Below are positions 7,714-23,418 of a stretch of 30,096 nucleotides of DNA, piece after piece. The DNA is from a virus, in the IMG/VR virus record IMGVR_UViG_3300028361_000094, positions 1 through 30,096 of that record; one strand, 5' to 3'. The position numbers and the translations under genes are program-made. The notes under the pieces were generated by a model. The model saw only the letters and a list, made by a program, of their open reading frames with translations, was not told the origin of the DNA and did no database searches. Positions within the stretch are counted from its first letter, which is position 1, and every line of letters begins with the position of its first letter.

Positions 7714-8895
7714 ATGGGAATGTCATCAGGAGTACGAGACACGACAAATCTATCGGCACGAAAGTACGATATGAAAGACGTGATCTCTCTATTGGATGTT
7801 AAACGATATCCAATGCTTGCGATCTTAACTAATGCTGGAAAGGATCCAGTATCAAAGGAGGGAAAAGCAATCAAGAAACAAGAAACAACCGACCCCGAAT
7901 TCAAATGGTTTGAAGACGAGTTCGGATCACGTGAGGCATCAACTGCATCAGGTAACACAGGAAAGAACATCGCTTCTACACCGTCAGTATCTGTAGCATC
8001 AGGACAAGGAGTACGTTTTGCTATCGGAGATATTATCCAGTTTGTAGCTGGAAAGTATACCTTTGAAGTAACAGCAATCTCAACGGACACATTAACTCTT
8101 TCGAACGAACTAGGAGGAGCAACTGGAACCGTAGACTTGTCATCACTTGTTGTATGGATCATAGGAAACGCAAACGCAGAGGGTGGAACACTTCGAGAAA
8201 TCAAAGGAACTACTCCAGTAGAAAAAGTAGGATATACACAAATCTTCCGTACACCATTCGGAACGACTAATACATCCAAGGAAACGGTAACTCTTATCAA
8301 AGAGAATGACCTTAGCTTCCAACGTCGAAAGAAAGGTATCGAACATATGATTGATATCGAGCGAGCGTTCTGGTTTGGAAAGAAATCAAAACGTACTGCA
8401 TCAGGAAACGGAAAACCTATCCGAACTACCGAGGGAGTAATTAACGTTATTTCTACATACGCAACAGCGAACGTAGATACCGAGGCAGAATGGGAGGCAT
8501 GGCTAGAAGACGTATTTGCACACGGAAACGTAGAGAAGTATGCATTCTGTTCACCAGCAATCATATCTATGATTAACAGTTTCGCAGCCTCAAAAGTTCA
8601 AATCGTTCAGAGCGAGAAAACATACGGGATTAAAATTATCAAGTATGAATCAGCTCACGGAACACTGAACCTAATCCGACATGAACTCTTCACAGGGACA
8701 CCATACGGAAACTACGCAGTAGCTCTAGACCTGGAAGTAGCAATGTACCGATATCTCTCACAACGAGATACTAAATTGTTAACAGATCGACAAGCAAACG
8801 ATGCAGATGAAAGCATCGAGGAATACTTGACAGAATGTGGACTACATCTCGAACAAGAGAAACGTCACGCAATCTGTTCATTCGCAGGACTTTAG
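7714..8895 (+). CDS. Major capsid protein, SU10/DUF5309-like
   Basis: This 393-residue capsid protein with an expected HK97 fold has an N-terminus (RDTTNLSARKYDMKDVISLL) that fits the SU10-like/DUF5309 group. So does the C-terminal block with SEKTYGIKI, HGTLNLIRHELFTG and TDRQANDADESIEEYLTECG. Residues about 95-155 (GDIIQF, FEVTAIS, DTLTLS, VWIIGNANAEGG) look like the inserted beta domain of this group. It has its own promoter and leader upstream. Its TAG stop is part of a large RNA hairpin downstream. Codon use is slightly richer in C/T-ending codons than in neighbours, as expected for a highly expressed gene. Confidence 0.92.
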   Translation: MGMSSGVRDTTNLSARKYDMKDVISLLDVKRYPMLAILTNAGKDPVSKEGKAIKKQETTDPEFKWFEDEFGSREASTASGNTGKNIASTPSVSVASGQGVRFAIGDIIQFVAGKYTFEVTAISTDTLTLSNELGGATGTVDLSSLVVWIIGNANAEGGTLREIKGTTPVEKVGYTQIFRTPFGTTNTSKETVTLIKENDLSFQRRKKGIEHMIDIERAFWFGKKSKRTASGNGKPIRTTEGVINVISTYATANVDTEAEWEAWLEDVFAHGNVEKYAFCSPAIISMINSFAASKVQIVQSEKTYGIKIIKYESAHGTLNLIRHELFTGTPYGNYAVALDLEVAMYRYLSQRDTKLLTDRQANDADESIEEYLTECGLHLEQEKRHAICSFAGL

Positions 8896-8957
8896 ATCGC
8901 TATGCTCGGCCAGGATCCCCGATGAACCTGGCCGAGACAATCGGGTAGCGATCCCGA
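8895..8957 (+). ncRNA. Large structured RNA element at the capsid stop codon
   Basis: An 8-bp perfect outer stem (GATCGCTA 8895-8902 with TAGCGATC 8946-8953) encloses a 10-bp perfect inner stem (8905-8914 with 8927-8936) and a 12-base loop at 8915-8926. The loop segment CCCGAT (8918-8923) is perfectly complementary to ATCGGG (8940-8945) in the internal loop. ATCGGG can alternatively pair with CCCGA at 8953-8957. No T tract follows, so it is not a standard terminator. Possible roles are mRNA stabilisation, processing, or RNA-RNA pairing. Confidence 0.75.
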
Positions 8958-8987: not shown

Positions 8988-9446
8988 ATGTCAACAAAGA
9001 AAAAAAGCGAGACATATGTCTCAAAATATCGATCATTACGATTGATCAGAGTGTCATCGTACACAAAGGAAATCAACGGAAAGTTCCTACCACAAAAAGG
9101 AGCATCAATCCGATTTAATGAGGGAGCATTTATTACATCAGACCAAGAGGAAATTGACTTCCTGGACAATCACGTAAACCTAGGCTCAGTCTTTATCAAG
9201 GTAGAAAAAGATGCCGTAGAGGAACGAGCAAACTACGTACAAACCCTAGAGGAACGAAACGCAGAACTGGAGGCTCAAGTCTCAAGCAAAAAAGAAACAG
9301 AGACAAAGGTAGAGAAAGATGAAGAACCAACTGTCGCGGAACTGAAAGAAATTGCAGACGAGAAAGGAATTGACATAAAAGGACTACGTAAAAAAGAAGA
9401 CATTAAAAACGCAATTGAAAAGGCCGAGGTAACGGCGAAGTTTTAA
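8988..9446 (+). CDS. Head-associated protein with C-terminal HeH/SAP-like motif
   Basis: This encodes 152 residues. Residues about 10-75 form a beta-rich domain (GASIRFNEGAFITSDQEE, then FIKVEKD). This kind of small domain often follows the capsid gene in phages. Residues 80-105 are a coiled coil. Residues 115-147 (ELKEIADEKGIDIKGLRKK) match a HeH/SAP/Rho-N-like helix-extended-helix motif, commonly linked to nucleic-acid binding. The gene is separated from the capsid gene by the structured RNA element. It may be a head-completion or genome-contact protein; the exact function is unknown. Confidence 0.7.
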   Translation: MSTKKKSETYVSKYRSLRLIRVSSYTKEINGKFLPQKGASIRFNEGAFITSDQEEIDFLDNHVNLGSVFIKVEKDAVEERANYVQTLEERNAELEAQVSSKKETETKVEKDEEPTVAELKEIADEKGIDIKGLRKKEDIKNAIEKAEVTAKF

Positions 9447-16692: not shown

Positions 16693-19600
16693 ATGTCATT
16701 TCTCAATAACCTATTACAAAAAGCGAAAGACCTCGTTACATACACAGCAGAAGAAAAAGCACAAGGTAAAAAACCAAACCTGCTAGAACGTATACCAATG
16801 CGAGCGAACAATAGTATTGAGAAAGTACAAGACTTCTTCGCACCAGTCCCTAACAAAGTAAGAGCTAGGGATTTTGTGCGTGAGGTACCTGAGGCAACCT
16901 TTAATGTGGCCAAAGAAATAGCCCAGGGAACAGCACGAACAATGGACTTTGCAGGACGAAAAATACTAGAAACAGCAGGCTTTGATCAATACAAGGACAT
17001 CGATGAAAAAGAAGATGATAAAATTACACAAACAATCTTCGGAGGAAATAAGAAAAGAGCAGGAAACCTTGGAGAAGTGGCAGAAGTAGAAGTAGGACTT
17101 GATCCTGAGAAGTTTCCTGTCATTGCACCTCTTGTAGGAGGAACTCTTGTCGGACTTGATTTGCTACCAGGAGGACTTGGAAAAGGGCCGAAAGCAAGTC
17201 TCAAATTATTTATAAAGGGAATGACTGACGAAATAGTAACAACCCTATCAAAAACAACTGACCCAAAGATTATCGAGGGAATTATTAGAGACACCTCAAA
17301 AGGAATTGATGATACGACCGTGAAAGCAATGACAGAAAACCTGGCCAAGATTGATAGCGAGGATGGAATCAAAAAATGGATCAAAGATATTGAAAACAAA
17401 GTAGTGAAACCAGGAGCAGATACTCCACCACCAGGAGGAGAACCACTTCTAAGAATTGCAGAATACGAAAACACAGATGCCGTACGTGGAGGGACTTGGT
17501 ACTCAGACCAAAAGGGAATTGCAGAGGTTGATACTTTCAATAAATCATTCCCTGGTAAAAAACAAAGTTTCAAAAGAAGTGAGAAACCAAAAAAACCTTT
17601 TGTAGTAAATGATGTAGACGAACTTGCTCCTGGAACAGAATCAGAAGAAGTAAAAGATGCACTATCAAGCATAGCCTCAAATGAATACTTTAATGTATAC
17701 GATAAACTAAACGATGTATACAAAAATGGTTCAAAAGAAATAACACCAGAGGTAGGGAACATTCTAAAAGAATATGGAATTAGTGATTTAGAAATAAAAG
17801 AATTATCAAAAGCTAGTGAGAATTTGGATTTTGCTATAGCAGATTTAATAACCTCAAAGGAACTAAGGAAACAAGGGTATGATTCTCTTATCATCAACAA
17901 CCAAAAAGGAACACACACCTTCGTATTCAAACCAGAAAAAATAGACCCTCAAATGATACAAGAGGCTTATACTGCACCAAATAAAGAACTGTTTGAAAAA
18001 ATAGCAAAATCAGAAAATGTTGATGATGCATCAATAAAACAAATCTGGGAAATAGGACAGGAATGGAAAAGCGATAAAATAATAAAAGCACTCGCCGACT
18101 ATAAACTATCGCCAACAGGAAACGCAGATGAAACAGGTGGATTACTTATGAGGCTACGAGATACTGATACAGGAAAAAAGATTGCAGAAGAATCAAAAAA
18201 ACTTCTTAACGGAACTAAAAAACTATTCAGATACGGAGACAAAGAGGGATTGTCATGGACAACAAAACCAGATCCATACTTCTCAAATGGTAGACCACTA
18301 CAAGAAATAGAATACACACCAGAGGTAGCGCAAAGAGTATTGTACTCAGAGGGAGCAGAAAAATCTCTAGGCTTCAGAGAGTTCCCAAACACAGGAGAAA
18401 GCGAGGTTATATTGGGACCTATAACAAAGTCAAAAGAAGTAGCACCATCAGAAACCATAGAGTCCGTCACTCTTTATCGTGCAGGAAACCTAGAGGACAC
18501 AACTGGTAGAGGATTATTCCTAACTCCCTCAAAAGAATATGCAGAATCATACATTGACACAGGACTTGGAGGAAAAACAGTAGGAGAGTATTCAATTAAT
18601 AATTTAAAGTTAAAAGAGGCAGATAATACAACCTCACTGCTTAATGAACTAGACCCAAATAACAAAGCAAAAACACAGAGAATCTATGATCGATATGTTA
18701 AAGGAGGACTAAAAGATGGTTACATAACACCAGAACAACAACTTGATGTATATAAAGAAAAACTAATAAAAAACCTCCTTAAAAAGGATGGCTTTGATGG
18801 TGTTAAATATTCAAGAGGTGGATCATCTAATACTGAATATCAAATCTTTGACGTAAAAAATATTAAAAATAAAGAGCCTAGTAATCTAACAAAAGAAGTA
18901 GCACCATCAGAAACCATAGAGTTCGTCACTAGAGGAGCCAAACAAGGACCGACCGAGGCATTTGGAGTGGTCGCAGGTTTTGAGCAGGACGAAGACGGAA
19001 ACATTACGATCGATCCATTGAAAGCAGGACTCGGAATAGTAGGAGCTGGACTTGCCAGAAACCTAAACCTGGACGGAGTAGACCCACGAAAACTTATAGA
19101 TAGACTAAAAGATATCCAAAACGCAAAAGGCTTCGATGAGGGAGTAGGAAACCTATGGCAAACAATAGATGCCTCAGAGGTCTCATACGCAATGAGACCA
19201 CTGGATGACACAGGATACAGCAATGCAGGATACAGATTTTCAACATATCCAAAATGGGTACCCGAAGAGCTCCGATCAAAAAAGCTCATGAATAAAGTGC
19301 TTGACCAAATACAAGCAGGAAAACAGCCAGCAAACAATGCATCACGAGAAAAAAGACTCTATGATATTTTTCTCAGAGAAATAGAAACAAGTGTGCAAAG
19401 TAACTCTGACGAATACGTACTCAATCAATTAGCAAGAGATACTGAAATAACACCGTCACAAATAGACGGAAGAGAAATAAACGATCTCAAGGCTTATGAT
19501 ATTGAAACAGCAGATATAAAAACACAAGACGATTTATTCCAGGCACGAGCAGACCTGGCCAAAAACAAAACGGTAGCAGGAATGCCACAAGAATATCAAG

Positions 19601-22125
19601 AGCCAGTTAAAAAAGCATTTGATGAGGTAGGAAAAGAAACAGCAAAAATAACTGACAGACGAATGAAAGATGCCCTGGAACTAGGGATAGATGAGGACGT
19701 AATGGCAAACGTATTGTACTCACGAGCAGGAGGAAGACTGTCTCACGCAGAGGCAGAAAACCTATCGAAAACCGTACGTGCACCATTGCAGGATCTAATC
19801 GATAAATCACCACAGCAACTAGGCCTGGACCGTGTGAAGTTCGAGGCATATTCTCAAGAAATCACAGGTTACTTCCAGAACGTCGTAAAAAAACTAAAAG
19901 CAGAATCACTAGCCAACCCGAAAGACCTAACCCTACAAGATGCCTATAAGAACGCATCACGAACCTACCTAAAAGCTAGAGCAGGACTAGAGGCAGGAAT
20001 CACGGAGGCAGGACGATTGGTAGAGGGATCAAAAATGATTGGAAAGAACAGTCGAGTACCAGGAGTAAACAGTCGAGTGCAACAAGTACGAAACAACCTG
20101 GTAGCCTACGCAAAGAAAAACCCTAAATACGAAAATCTACCCTCAGACTTTGATGTTGCTCTGGAGGCAATAGACATAAACAACCCAACGGAAGTCATGA
20201 AGTTTCTCACAAAGTGGAACAAGACATCGTTCCTAAGAAAACTATCAGAGGCTCAAAAAGCATTCCTCCTATCAGCACTCTCAACACACAACACTAACGC
20301 ACTCGGAAACGCAATTCAACAAGTAATGGATGTACCAGTGCGAGCATTAGCTGGAGTATTAGATGGAGCCGTGAGCAAAGTAACAGGAAGAAAGCAAGAG
20401 GTATTCCCAACCGAGGCATTAGGACAAATACGTGGAGCATTCAGATCGACCCCAGCCGTAATAGAAAATGCTATCAACGGACTCAAAAACGAACACTTCG
20501 GATTCGAACTACGTCGTACCGAGATAGAACAAGGAACCCCAGTACCAGCCATTAAAGGAAAACTAGGAGAAATCATTCGCCTACCATTCCGACTGCTACA
20601 ATCAGCCGACCTTGCATTCCGAACAGTGAAACAAGGAGCCGAGGGAGAGGCACTAGCAATCAGAATAGCCAACAAAGAGGGACTGACAGGAACGGCATAT
20701 AAAAACCGTGTCAAAGAATTAGCAGAACATACACCAGCAGACCAACTCGACCTAATAGATGCACGAACAGAACGCTCGCTCATGCTCGAAGACCTCACAG
20801 GGATAATGAAAGGAGTAGAGGATTTGAAAAACAAATACCCAGCAATGCAATTTGTAATTCCATTCTACCGAACTCTTGTAAACTTAACGCGTGAGGCCTA
20901 CCGAATGACACCAATAAGAATGATAGGACAAGGAGTAGGAAAACTTGTACCAGAAAGTAAAGGAGGACGACAGATAACTGAAATGTTCAGTGATCAATGG
21001 ACCAAAAACAAAGCAACAAAGATGGAAGAAATCTCACGGCAAATCATTGGAACTTCAATCATTACCTACTTTATTATGAAAAAACTATCAGGAGATATTG
21101 ATATGACAGGACCAGCACCGAGCAACGCAGGAGACCGTGAAGTCTTCTACGGACAAGGAAAACTTCCTCACTCAATTAAAATAGGAGACAAGTGGGTAGA
21201 GTTCCAAAGAGTCCAACCAATAGGTCAACTTATGCAAATAGCAGGAAGTATTGCAAACTCAATCGATGCCTACAAAAACACTGGACAATTAAACTCACAA
21301 GATGTTGCGAATGAATCAGCAAAAGCATTGGGAGATATTGGATCAATGGTATTCACACAGTCGCCATTCACAGGAGTGTCAGACTTATTCGACCTTATGA
21401 AAGGAGGAAAATATAACGAGGGATACGCAAAAGCAGGTAACCGATACCTCGGACAACTGATTGGAACATTTATTCCAAACATTCTACGAAGAACAACGGT
21501 AGCCATGGACCCAATCGTCTATGAAAAAAGAGATATTAGGTCACAACTACAAAGTAGAATTCCAGGACTACAAAAAAACCTCACACCAAAGCGAGACCTC
21601 TTCGGAGAAATCGTACGGCAAGGAGGAACCAGCGCCGAAAGGTTCGCCTCACCAATTAGAACCTCAGACGTGAAAGCAAACAAACTCTATGAAGAATTTG
21701 ATACCATAGGATACACACCAAGTGTTCCAGGACGTAAGGTGTTCAGTCAAGAACTATCAACCGATGCATACGAGACATTGCAAAAATACTATGGCCCACG
21801 ACTGCGAGACGAACTATGGAAGATAACTGAATCACCAGGATATAAAAACCTGAACGATGCACAGAAAGATAAGATACTCAGCAAGACCTCAAGTACCGTA
21901 CTACAACTGGCACGAGAAAAACTGTTCCCAATTTACGCACAAAAAGATACACAGAGAAAAATGTGGATCCAGCAAGGATACACAGGGAAACAAATAGAAG
22001 ATGCGCTAAAAACAAAATTCCCTTATACTGATGAAGTACTAGAAAAGTACGCAGAGGGAATCCTTGCACAAGAACAAGAAAATGGAAATGCAAGATTTAC
22101 CATAGAAGAACTCCTCAAACAATAA
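16693..22125 (+). CDS. Giant polyvalent-type internal virion protein with ART-like modules
   Basis: This encodes 1810 residues. After an N-terminal region there are three segments resembling ADP-ribosyltransferases: about 252-421 (GTWYSD, then GYDSLII and FVFKPEKI), about 510-578 (FRYG, LSWTT, GESEVIL) and about 593-727 (LYRAGN, GLFLTPSKEYAESY, DGFDGVKYSRGG, EYQIFDV). A linker AFGVVAGFEQDEDGNI (from about 755) follows. Then comes a long helical body with FVIPFYRTLVNLTREAYR (about 1387-1404), which resembles large polyvalent-protein-associated domains. Such proteins are packaged and injected with the DNA. Two 41-bp repeats flank the third module. The length and position also fit a podovirus ejection protein. 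Confidence 0.75.
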   Translation: MSFLNNLLQKAKDLVTYTAEEKAQGKKPNLLERIPMRANNSIEKVQDFFAPVPNKVRARDFVREVPEATFNVAKEIAQGTARTMDFAGRKILETAGFDQYKDIDEKEDDKITQTIFGGNKKRAGNLGEVAEVEVGLDPEKFPVIAPLVGGTLVGLDLLPGGLGKGPKASLKLFIKGMTDEIVTTLSKTTDPKIIEGIIRDTSKGIDDTTVKAMTENLAKIDSEDGIKKWIKDIENKVVKPGADTPPPGGEPLLRIAEYENTDAVRGGTWYSDQKGIAEVDTFNKSFPGKKQSFKRSEKPKKPFVVNDVDELAPGTESEEVKDALSSIASNEYFNVYDKLNDVYKNGSKEITPEVGNILKEYGISDLEIKELSKASENLDFAIADLITSKELRKQGYDSLIINNQKGTHTFVFKPEKIDPQMIQEAYTAPNKELFEKIAKSENVDDASIKQIWEIGQEWKSDKIIKALADYKLSPTGNADETGGLLMRLRDTDTGKKIAEESKKLLNGTKKLFRYGDKEGLSWTTKPDPYFSNGRPLQEIEYTPEVAQRVLYSEGAEKSLGFREFPNTGESEVILGPITKSKEVAPSETIESVTLYRAGNLEDTTGRGLFLTPSKEYAESYIDTGLGGKTVGEYSINNLKLKEADNTTSLLNELDPNNKAKTQRIYDRYVKGGLKDGYITPEQQLDVYKEKLIKNLLKKDGFDGVKYSRGGSSNTEYQIFDVKNIKNKEPSNLTKEVAPSETIEFVTRGAKQGPTEAFGVVAGFEQDEDGNITIDPLKAGLGIVGAGLARNLNLDGVDPRKLIDRLKDIQNAKGFDEGVGNLWQTIDASEVSYAMRPLDDTGYSNAGYRFSTYPKWVPEELRSKKLMNKVLDQIQAGKQPANNASREKRLYDIFLREIETSVQSNSDEYVLNQLARDTEITPSQIDGREINDLKAYDIETADIKTQDDLFQARADLAKNKTVAGMPQEYQEPVKKAFDEVGKETAKITDRRMKDALELGIDEDVMANVLYSRAGGRLSHAEAENLSKTVRAPLQDLIDKSPQQLGLDRVKFEAYSQEITGYFQNVVKKLKAESLANPKDLTLQDAYKNASRTYLKARAGLEAGITEAGRLVEGSKMIGKNSRVPGVNSRVQQVRNNLVAYAKKNPKYENLPSDFDVALEAIDINNPTEVMKFLTKWNKTSFLRKLSEAQKAFLLSALSTHNTNALGNAIQQVMDVPVRALAGVLDGAVSKVTGRKQEVFPTEALGQIRGAFRSTPAVIENAINGLKNEHFGFELRRTEIEQGTPVPAIKGKLGEIIRLPFRLLQSADLAFRTVKQGAEGEALAIRIANKEGLTGTAYKNRVKELAEHTPADQLDLIDARTERSLMLEDLTGIMKGVEDLKNKYPAMQFVIPFYRTLVNLTREAYRMTPIRMIGQGVGKLVPESKGGRQITEMFSDQWTKNKATKMEEISRQIIGTSIITYFIMKKLSGDIDMTGPAPSNAGDREVFYGQGKLPHSIKIGDKWVEFQRVQPIGQLMQIAGSIANSIDAYKNTGQLNSQDVANESAKALGDIGSMVFTQSPFTGVSDLFDLMKGGKYNEGYAKAGNRYLGQLIGTFIPNILRRTTVAMDPIVYEKRDIRSQLQSRIPGLQKNLTPKRDLFGEIVRQGGTSAERFASPIRTSDVKANKLYEEFDTIGYTPSVPGRKVFSQELSTDAYETLQKYYGPRLRDELWKITESPGYKNLNDAQKDKILSKTSSTVLQLAREKLFPIYAQKDTQRKMWIQQGYTGKQIEDALKTKFPYTDEVLEKYAEGILAQEQENGNARFTIEELLKQ
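18431..18930 (+). repeat. 41-bp direct repeats flanking an ART-like module
   Basis: Bases 18431-18471 and 18890-18930 match at 40 of 41 positions and are 459 bp apart, exactly 153 codons. Each encodes KEVAPSETIE followed by S/F-VT. Recombination between them would remove the module between the copies without shifting the frame. Confidence 0.93.
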
Positions 22126-23321: not shown

Positions 23322-23418
23322 CGTCGTAGCGTGTTGGCTACGACAAATGACTTCGGATATCTTCTTAAATGAGATAACTAGAACAAAAAGCACTACTGAG
23401 CAATCAGTGGTGCTTTTT
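23322..23418 (+). ncRNA. Candidate small RNA of about 97 nt
   Basis: The predicted RNA starts with a perfect 8-bp stem (GTCGTAGC 23323-23330 with GCTACGAC 23337-23344) and a 6-base loop. A short stem follows (TATCT 23358-23362 with AGATA 23372-23376). It ends in the strong terminator at 23385-23418. It has its own promoter-like sequence and no open frame. The simpler alternative is that it is only the 3' end of the lysis transcript. Confidence 0.5.
23385..23418 (+). terminator. Strong, likely bidirectional terminator
   Basis: A 14-bp stem (AAAAAGCACTACTG with CAGTGGTGCTTTTT, one G-U pair) surrounds a 6-base loop. The A tract at the start and T tract at the end allow termination in both directions. 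It closes the late region after the lysis genes. Confidence 0.93.

Follow-up and report, generated by a model that had tools for sequence, protein, structure and literature searches.

The window analysed here is a 30-kb virus record (IMGVR_UViG_3300028361_000094; 30,096 nt) that encodes a GpA-type terminase and a major capsid protein of the SU10_MCP family, and the element under study occupies positions 8895–8953, at the end of the capsid gene. The same architecture of two stems and a third, loop-to-internal-loop helix was found directly behind the major capsid gene in 23 distinct sequences (the window included); their letters are nearly unrelated, and compensated pairs occur in all three helices. 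The element is restricted to capsid 3' ends, is selected as RNA of the plus strand, marks a single deep clade of capsids and lies where other phages carry terminators or hairpins. Because a shape that stays constant through an almost complete change of letters must do a job, we tentatively read it as a cis-acting element that forms the 3' boundary of the capsid mRNA and owes its selection to shape and not to sequence, an interpretation that we give nearly an even chance of being correct.

Anatomy and pairing geometry of the element

The element consists of an outer stem, a (8 bp), an inner stem, b (10 bp), and a loop. A first-pass annotation made from the letters of the window had described two perfect stems with 18 pairs starting at the last base of the capsid TAG, a 12-base loop in which CCCGAT is complementary to ATCGGG of the internal loop, and the lack of a T tract; all three descriptions agree with the sequence. 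The parts are as follows.

8895–8902, + strand: outer stem a, 5' strand, GATCGCTA; starts on the G of the capsid TAG (sequence and fold; compensated in relatives)
8905–8914, + strand: inner stem b, 5' strand, CTCGGCCAGG (sequence, fold and relatives)
8918–8923, + strand: c, the loop half of the pseudoknot helix, CCCGAT; complementary to c', with the pairing conserved across relatives
8927–8936, + strand: inner stem b', 3' strand, CCTGGCCGAG (sequence, fold and relatives)
8940–8945, + strand: c', the internal-loop half of the pseudoknot helix, ATCGGG; complementary to c, with the pairing conserved across relatives
8946–8953, + strand: outer stem a', 3' strand, TAGCGATC; abuts c' directly (sequence, fold and relatives)
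8953–8957, + strand: d, CCCGA, a second possible partner of c' (TCGGG, 8941–8945; shuffle test over members)

Within the 12-nt loop ATCCCCGATGAA (8915–8926), c is flanked by the 3-nt spacers ATC (8915–8917) and GAA (8924–8926), and on the 3' strand of the internal loop, ACAATCGGG (8937–8945), a spacer ACA (8937–8939) precedes c'. Read from its sequence, the order a-b-c-b'-c'-a' is that of an H-type pseudoknot nested within the closing stem a/a'. The RNA fold of the window element reached −33.4 kcal/mol, compared with −19.7 ± 3.2 kcal/mol for shuffled sequences (z = −4.3; 0 of 200 as good); the minimum free energy program also placed weak pairs within the loop, and these compete with c:c'. The element has the GC-rich hairpin expected of an intrinsic terminator, but no U tract directly follows the stem in the window (CCGAAATACT), and no T run of the usual kind follows a' in the other members either; an intrinsic terminator was therefore rejected. 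The element was also not listed by a scan that found hairpins with T runs elsewhere in the window, at 237–263 and 23385–23418. These hairpins indicate that the window phage is able to use such signals, yet none is used behind its capsid gene.

The first-pass annotation had argued that three bases would have to span ten base pairs for the contact to form within one molecule, and that partial opening or a second RNA was more likely to be needed. This argument was not supported; its count left out the two loop spacers. In a geometry model with rigid A-form helices and maximal linker lengths, in which the two spacers of about 3 nt were included, helices a, b and c of the window formed together in one molecule with no pair opened. 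Among the 23 members, most required the fraying of 0–2 pairs at the ends of c, and three (L014, L035 and L047) required 3–4. The model is coarse and permissive, in that a control that should fail is let through once one pair is frayed, and it therefore lifts the steric objection only and is no proof of intramolecular pairing. Steric exclusion of such pairing was thus not upheld, and we infer that the pseudoknot would form within one molecule.

The pairing of c' with the CCCGA just outside the element, which had also been proposed, is possible in the window and in some clades and does not extend to the whole family. The partner d is kept in the window, L002, L003 and L023, and the relation is kept with other letters in L006 (AGGATG/CATCCT) and L032 (TGGATG/CATCCA); it is absent in most other clades. 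Summed over members, d pairing came to 90, compared with 71.8 ± 3.7 in shuffles (P values for members, 0.01–0.07). It may fine-tune folding in the clade to which the window belongs.

Conservation among relatives and the selected strand

Capsid searches supplied the relatives: IMG/VR contributed 16 loci at first and 51 later, named genomes contributed 13, and a few others were added. An element score of at least 58 was reached by 24 loci, comprising the 23 firm members and L081, which was at first counted as a member and is doubtful because it fails a two-stem test chosen without regard to c. The turnover of letters is evident in the c/c' pairs: CCCGAT/ATCGGG in the window corresponds to CTGATTG/CAATCAG in L006, GGCTCTC/GAGAGCC in L011, GCTTTCC/GGAAAGC in L054, GCCTCTT/AAGAGGC in L103, GGCACTCC/GGAGTGCC in L010, GGCACTTC/GAAGTGCC in L012, GGCTTCCC/GGGAAGCC in L053, GTCACTCTG/CAGAGTGAC in L035, AAGGCATTCT/AGAATGCCTT in L020 and GTCTCTTT/AAAGAGAC in L074. 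Across members, stem b has 8–15 pairs, the loop spacers are about 3 nt, the spacer between b' and c' is 0–3 nt, and c' mostly abuts a' directly; no loop position was conserved across the clades. The first-pass annotation had proposed that conserved complementarity of loop and internal loop would support the structure and that loss of the stems in close relatives would speak against it. The outcome was clearly positive, with compensating changes throughout the 23 sequences, and all capsids near 81% identity to that of the window keep the element and its stems. An exact-stem pattern search of all IMG/VR returned a single, near-identical contig (IMGVR 3300028364_000171), which is not independent.

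Searches for the whole architecture separated the members, which scored 58–75, from shuffled regions, which scored at most 46 in 220 trials. When 499 kb of related loci were scanned on both strands, all matches with a score of at least 56 lay directly behind the capsid gene, the few on the minus strand being the same capsid-3' sites read backwards, and no other copies of the element were found in these loci. In a cross-partner test, the summed pairs formed with the members' own 3' strands were 198, 249 and 187 for a, b and c, whereas the maxima under permutation were 140, 164 and 138; own partners gave means of 8.3, 10.4 and 7.8 pairs, compared with 4.1, 4.9 and 3.8 for the partners of others, and none of 20,000 permutations was as high as the own pairing. 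The two-stem test avoids selecting on the feature tested, as the best fold on a and b was taken for each of the 34 loci of the clade, blind to c. Such folds were found in 24 of the 34 loci, and their c:c' complementarity summed to 390, compared with 200 ± 10 in shuffles (maximum 236); individually, 21 of the 24 had P < 0.05.

Covariation was assessed in an alignment of ten sequences from the window's side of the capsid tree, with the named structure including the pseudoknot. It contained 40 double-change cells, compared with 15.7 ± 3.0 expected, and its covariation score was 0.48 versus 0.20, with slid controls at background level (at most 0.21). Helix c varied little in this alignment, and three rows were apparently misaligned there, so the support for helix c rests on the cross-partner and two-stem tests. 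The H-type order S1-L1-S2-L2-S1'-L3-S2', with both helices backed by covariation, was thus present. As far as the sequences of relatives can tell, a chance origin of the predicted structure is settled as ruled out.

When the same rule was applied to both strands, the plus strand scored better in 23 of the 24 loci and equally in one (mean 64.9 versus 38.7), because the stems keep G-U pairs and not A-C mismatches. The non-Watson–Crick pairs on the plus strand comprised 62 G-U and 7 A-C, a count that is by itself biased as the search favours G-U. The higher score of the plus strand means that selection acts on an RNA with the polarity of the capsid mRNA, and a function at the DNA level (cruciform, recombination or replication site) was rejected.

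In the capsid tree, the element is characteristic of a single clade of 34 rows (support 100/100), and the pseudoknot label requires 5 changes, compared with a shuffled mean of 12.8 (the doubtful L081 being counted as a member). Relatives with plain hairpins fall outside this clade. Loci in named genomes with at least 48% capsid identity include those of Candidatus Woesebacteria, Gottesmanbacteria, Shapirobacteria, Daviesbacteria and Doudnabacteria, and some are embedded in host contigs of great length (385 kb and 1.1 Mb), which indicates that the clade includes prophages of Patescibacteria. The host of the window phage probably belongs to the Patescibacteria too. As judged from this tree, the element is a single ancient character that belongs to a clade of capsids occurring in Patescibacteria genomes.

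Other structures occur behind the capsid gene in some relatives. In L029 and L031, two hairpins apparently stand beneath an outer stem in place of the element. A sister clade with a different post-capsid structure comprises L019, L042, L043, L049, L068, L073, L075–L078, L090, L093, L154 and L160 and includes prophages of Daviesbacteria and Gottesmanbacteria. This L019/L042 group has two hairpins conserved in sequence, GTCACTxCACACTTTCTTACTCAGTGxAGTCGC followed by GGGGTGAGCGTTATCACCCC, which had no Rfam match; some of its members show pairing between the loop CACTTTCTT and AAGAAAGTG, which lies beside the ribosome site of the next gene.

Genomic position and neighbouring genes

The two genes that border the element in the window are the following.

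7714–8895, + strand: major capsid protein gene (SU10_MCP family), 393 amino acids (open reading frame [ORF]; stop TAG at 8893–8895)
8988–9446, + strand: next gene, encoding a small conserved protein without an assigned function; start codon 34 nt past the element

The upstream gene had been taken for a capsid gene from its letters, and its product indeed matched SU10_MCP in Pfam (PF17236, 4.2e-42) and the major head protein family 1328 in PHROG (1.4e-34). A Pfam search with the product of the next gene gave no match. The gene 3' of the element belongs to one and the same family throughout the members, and its product often has a Lys-rich or HeH-like tail (as read by eye). The start of the element on the capsid stop codon, described for the window, is typical in that the median distance from the stop is 6 nt, and it is not fixed (sd 23 nt; up to 69 nt, with 66–69 nt in L010–L012).

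Strong folding at this place extends beyond the members. The 70 nt after the capsid stop folded at a mean of −21.3 kcal/mol (69 loci, some of them near-duplicates), compared with −12.1 kcal/mol after 577 other ORFs, and folds below −25 kcal/mol were found in 42% and 4%, respectively. Cultured relatives with about 25–30% capsid identity (Roseobacter phage CRP-810, Vibrio phage VS-ABTNL-3 and Pseudomonas phage PaP2) carry a hairpin with a T run at the same place, and distant uncultured relatives carry a plain GC hairpin there. In T7 and LUZ100, a strong terminator lies immediately 3' of the capsid gene (PMC10134795).

Some further features of these loci were observed. The motif AAAGGTCGA recurs in L010, L011, L012, L020, L035, L047, L074, L014, L053, L054, L081 and L082, mostly in intergenic positions about 30–40 nt before start codons and several times per locus (for example, L010:2700, 3139, 3971, 6327 and 6821); it also precedes the gene after the capsid gene, and it was not found in the structural region of the window. 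In these Patescibacteria phages, it may serve as a promoter of the phage or as a signal in the mRNA. In the window, an A/T-rich stretch precedes the start codon of most genes, mostly without a Shine–Dalgarno sequence, and positions 16693–22125 hold an ORF of 1810 amino acids resembling polyvalent proteins, with a sub-threshold match to ART-PolyVal.

Proposed function, alternatives and known systems

The position and shape of the element suggest a role in marking the 3' end of the major capsid mRNA and in protecting it, in place of the terminator or plain hairpin of other phages in this capsid family. The pseudoknot in the closing stem would hold off 3'-to-5' exonucleases and may also pause the polymerase or guide an endonuclease cut; the capsid mRNA would thereby accumulate above the downstream genes, and its stability, 3'-end formation and dosage would all be affected. 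The place of the element, its strand and its unconserved sequence speak for such a physical block (to an exonuclease, or through pausing or processing) rather than for a protein operator. On a bolder reading, which we hold with somewhat less confidence, the element would represent an RNA family, new and defined by shape only, in phages of Patescibacteria, with the pseudoknot serving as a mechanical end-stop (or RNA–RNA assembly device) that sets capsid output without a U tract, conserved sequence or known protein partner.

Several points weigh against a boundary function. Protection of a 3' end could be had from a plain hairpin and by itself leaves the pseudoknot unexplained. The element keeps a steadier distance from the next start (median 36 nt, sd 10) than from the capsid stop, and the constancy of the next gene family means that synteny cannot separate control of that gene. 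Furthermore, the element was lost or replaced in L007/L008, L039, L029/L031 and L082, and the L019/L042 group carries its different conserved structure instead.

Translational control of the next gene would draw on some of the same facts. A leader pseudoknot would limit the access of ribosomes to this gene, or their re-initiation beyond the capsid stop, and the gene product might feed back on it, as with the leader pseudoknot of T4 gene 32. The fairly constant spacing (36 ± 10 nt), the single family of the next gene with its frequent tail, and the ability of the loop of the altRNA group (L019/L042) to pair beside the ribosome site of the next gene in some members (L042) are in line with this. 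However, the element covers neither the start nor any ribosome-binding sequence, its sequence is not conserved, unlike the usual protein operator, and pairing of the L042 type is not kept in L075–L077; we consider such control rather unlikely. A conformational switch, in which b:b' and c:c' (or c':d) alternate as a ribosome ending at the capsid stop covers stem a, has a poor chance. It would fit the usual start of the element within a few bases of the stop and the retention of d in the window's clade, with changes in step in L006 and L032, but the pairing follows the 1:3 and 2:4 pattern of a pseudoknot and not the 1:2/2:3 pattern of an attenuator, d is missing in most clades, and L010–L012 place the element far from the stop. 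Recoding by readthrough or frameshift at the capsid stop, suggested by the stem starting on the stop codon in the window and several relatives, has a negligible probability: the stop codons differ, the next gene occurs equally in all three frames (8, 7 and 7), and the length of the open frame past the stop is anywhere from 0 to 173 codons. As this frame is not conserved, recoding as a conserved function was refuted.

It is distinctly unlikely that separate molecules join through c and c' into dimers or rings, for instance as an assembly or packaging RNA that is released from the capsid message and acts in trans in the manner of phi29 pRNA. The covarying complementarity of loop and internal loop, the constant shape with variable sequence, and the single copy per locus next to the capsid gene would suit such an RNA, and the loops of L035 and L047 are too tight for full intramolecular pairing. 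The pRNAs are likewise variable in sequence with paired, covarying loops (PMC12670572), and GOLLD and ROOL RNAs form homo-oligomers (PMC12286853). On the other hand, c' lies immediately next to b' and a', the arrangement of an H-type pseudoknot, and intramolecular pairing is geometrically allowed in most members; the element has no three-way junction, no Rfam match and no sign of its own promoter or processing ends, and the large terminase subunit (TerL) of the window phage is of the GpA type with a nuclease domain. Given the geometry model, a dimerisation or packaging RNA appears not to be needed. In sites for RNase III-type endonucleases, such as those of T7 or lambda sib, two stems flank an internal loop. 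The element resembles these in its size (about 60 nt), its lower stem, asymmetric internal loop and upper stem, and its place between cistrons, and the pseudoknot might then set where or whether a cut occurs; a 3' element that regulates an upstream phage gene also has a precedent (PMC2864571). No conserved cleavage motif is present, however, and the c:c' pairing would hide the internal loop, which makes a processing site of this kind highly unlikely.

No known RNA family was found anywhere in the window, no Rfam family matched the element there or in 15 loci at the gathering threshold, and at E values up to 5 nothing fell on it except two chance-level minus-strand matches. The sole Rfam match in the 15 loci was a LOOT RNA (RF03000, 79 bits; L014:808–932), a few kb upstream of the capsid gene. 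No tRNA-like structure was found, and literature searches, which covered open-licence papers, found no description of the element. It shares with the post-capsid terminators of T7, LUZ100, CRP-810, VS-ABTNL-3 and PaP2 the position at the end of the capsid cistron, a strong GC-rich stem and, probably, a role in setting capsid expression, and it differs from them in having a nested pseudoknot instead of a plain hairpin and in lacking a U tract. On this comparison, the element would be a post-capsid expression signal built as a nested pseudoknot, and that build appears to be new. Hairpins and terminators behind capsid genes are common, whereas it is unusual for a pseudoknot to keep its shape through near-total turnover of its letters, and to do so at a single place in each locus. 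The finding suggests that, where dosage matters most to them, phages of ultra-small bacteria rely on RNA architecture and not on U-tract termination. The element is compact enough for the stems and the pseudoknot to be broken and restored singly in a reporter.

The likeness to phi29 pRNA raised in the first-pass annotation holds as an analogy. Both have a conserved shape, variable sequence and covarying complementary single-stranded segments (PMC12670572), but the element has only two stems in line within about 60 nt, without the three-way junction with two loop-bearing arms, lies within the late gene block, pairs c with the internal-loop strand adjoining the stem, and was not matched by the Rfam Phage_pRNA covariance model. 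In twister ribozymes, too, a terminal loop pairs with an internal loop across an intervening stem (PMC5408937); unlike twister and other self-cleaving ribozymes, the element has no loop position conserved across clades and no Rfam match. The lambda sib or L17 downstream element is a structured 3' untranslated RNA that acts on the upstream gene (PMC2864571), as proposed here, with no relation in sequence or fold shown between the two. The proposed mechanism has its closest likeness in the viral exonuclease-resistant RNAs (xrRNAs), in which a pseudoknot blocks an exonuclease mechanically; these differ in topology and hosts (5'-3' Xrn1 in eukaryotes), and no homology is claimed. Should the element indeed stop an exonuclease of bacteria, these RNAs would have a bacterial counterpart in it.
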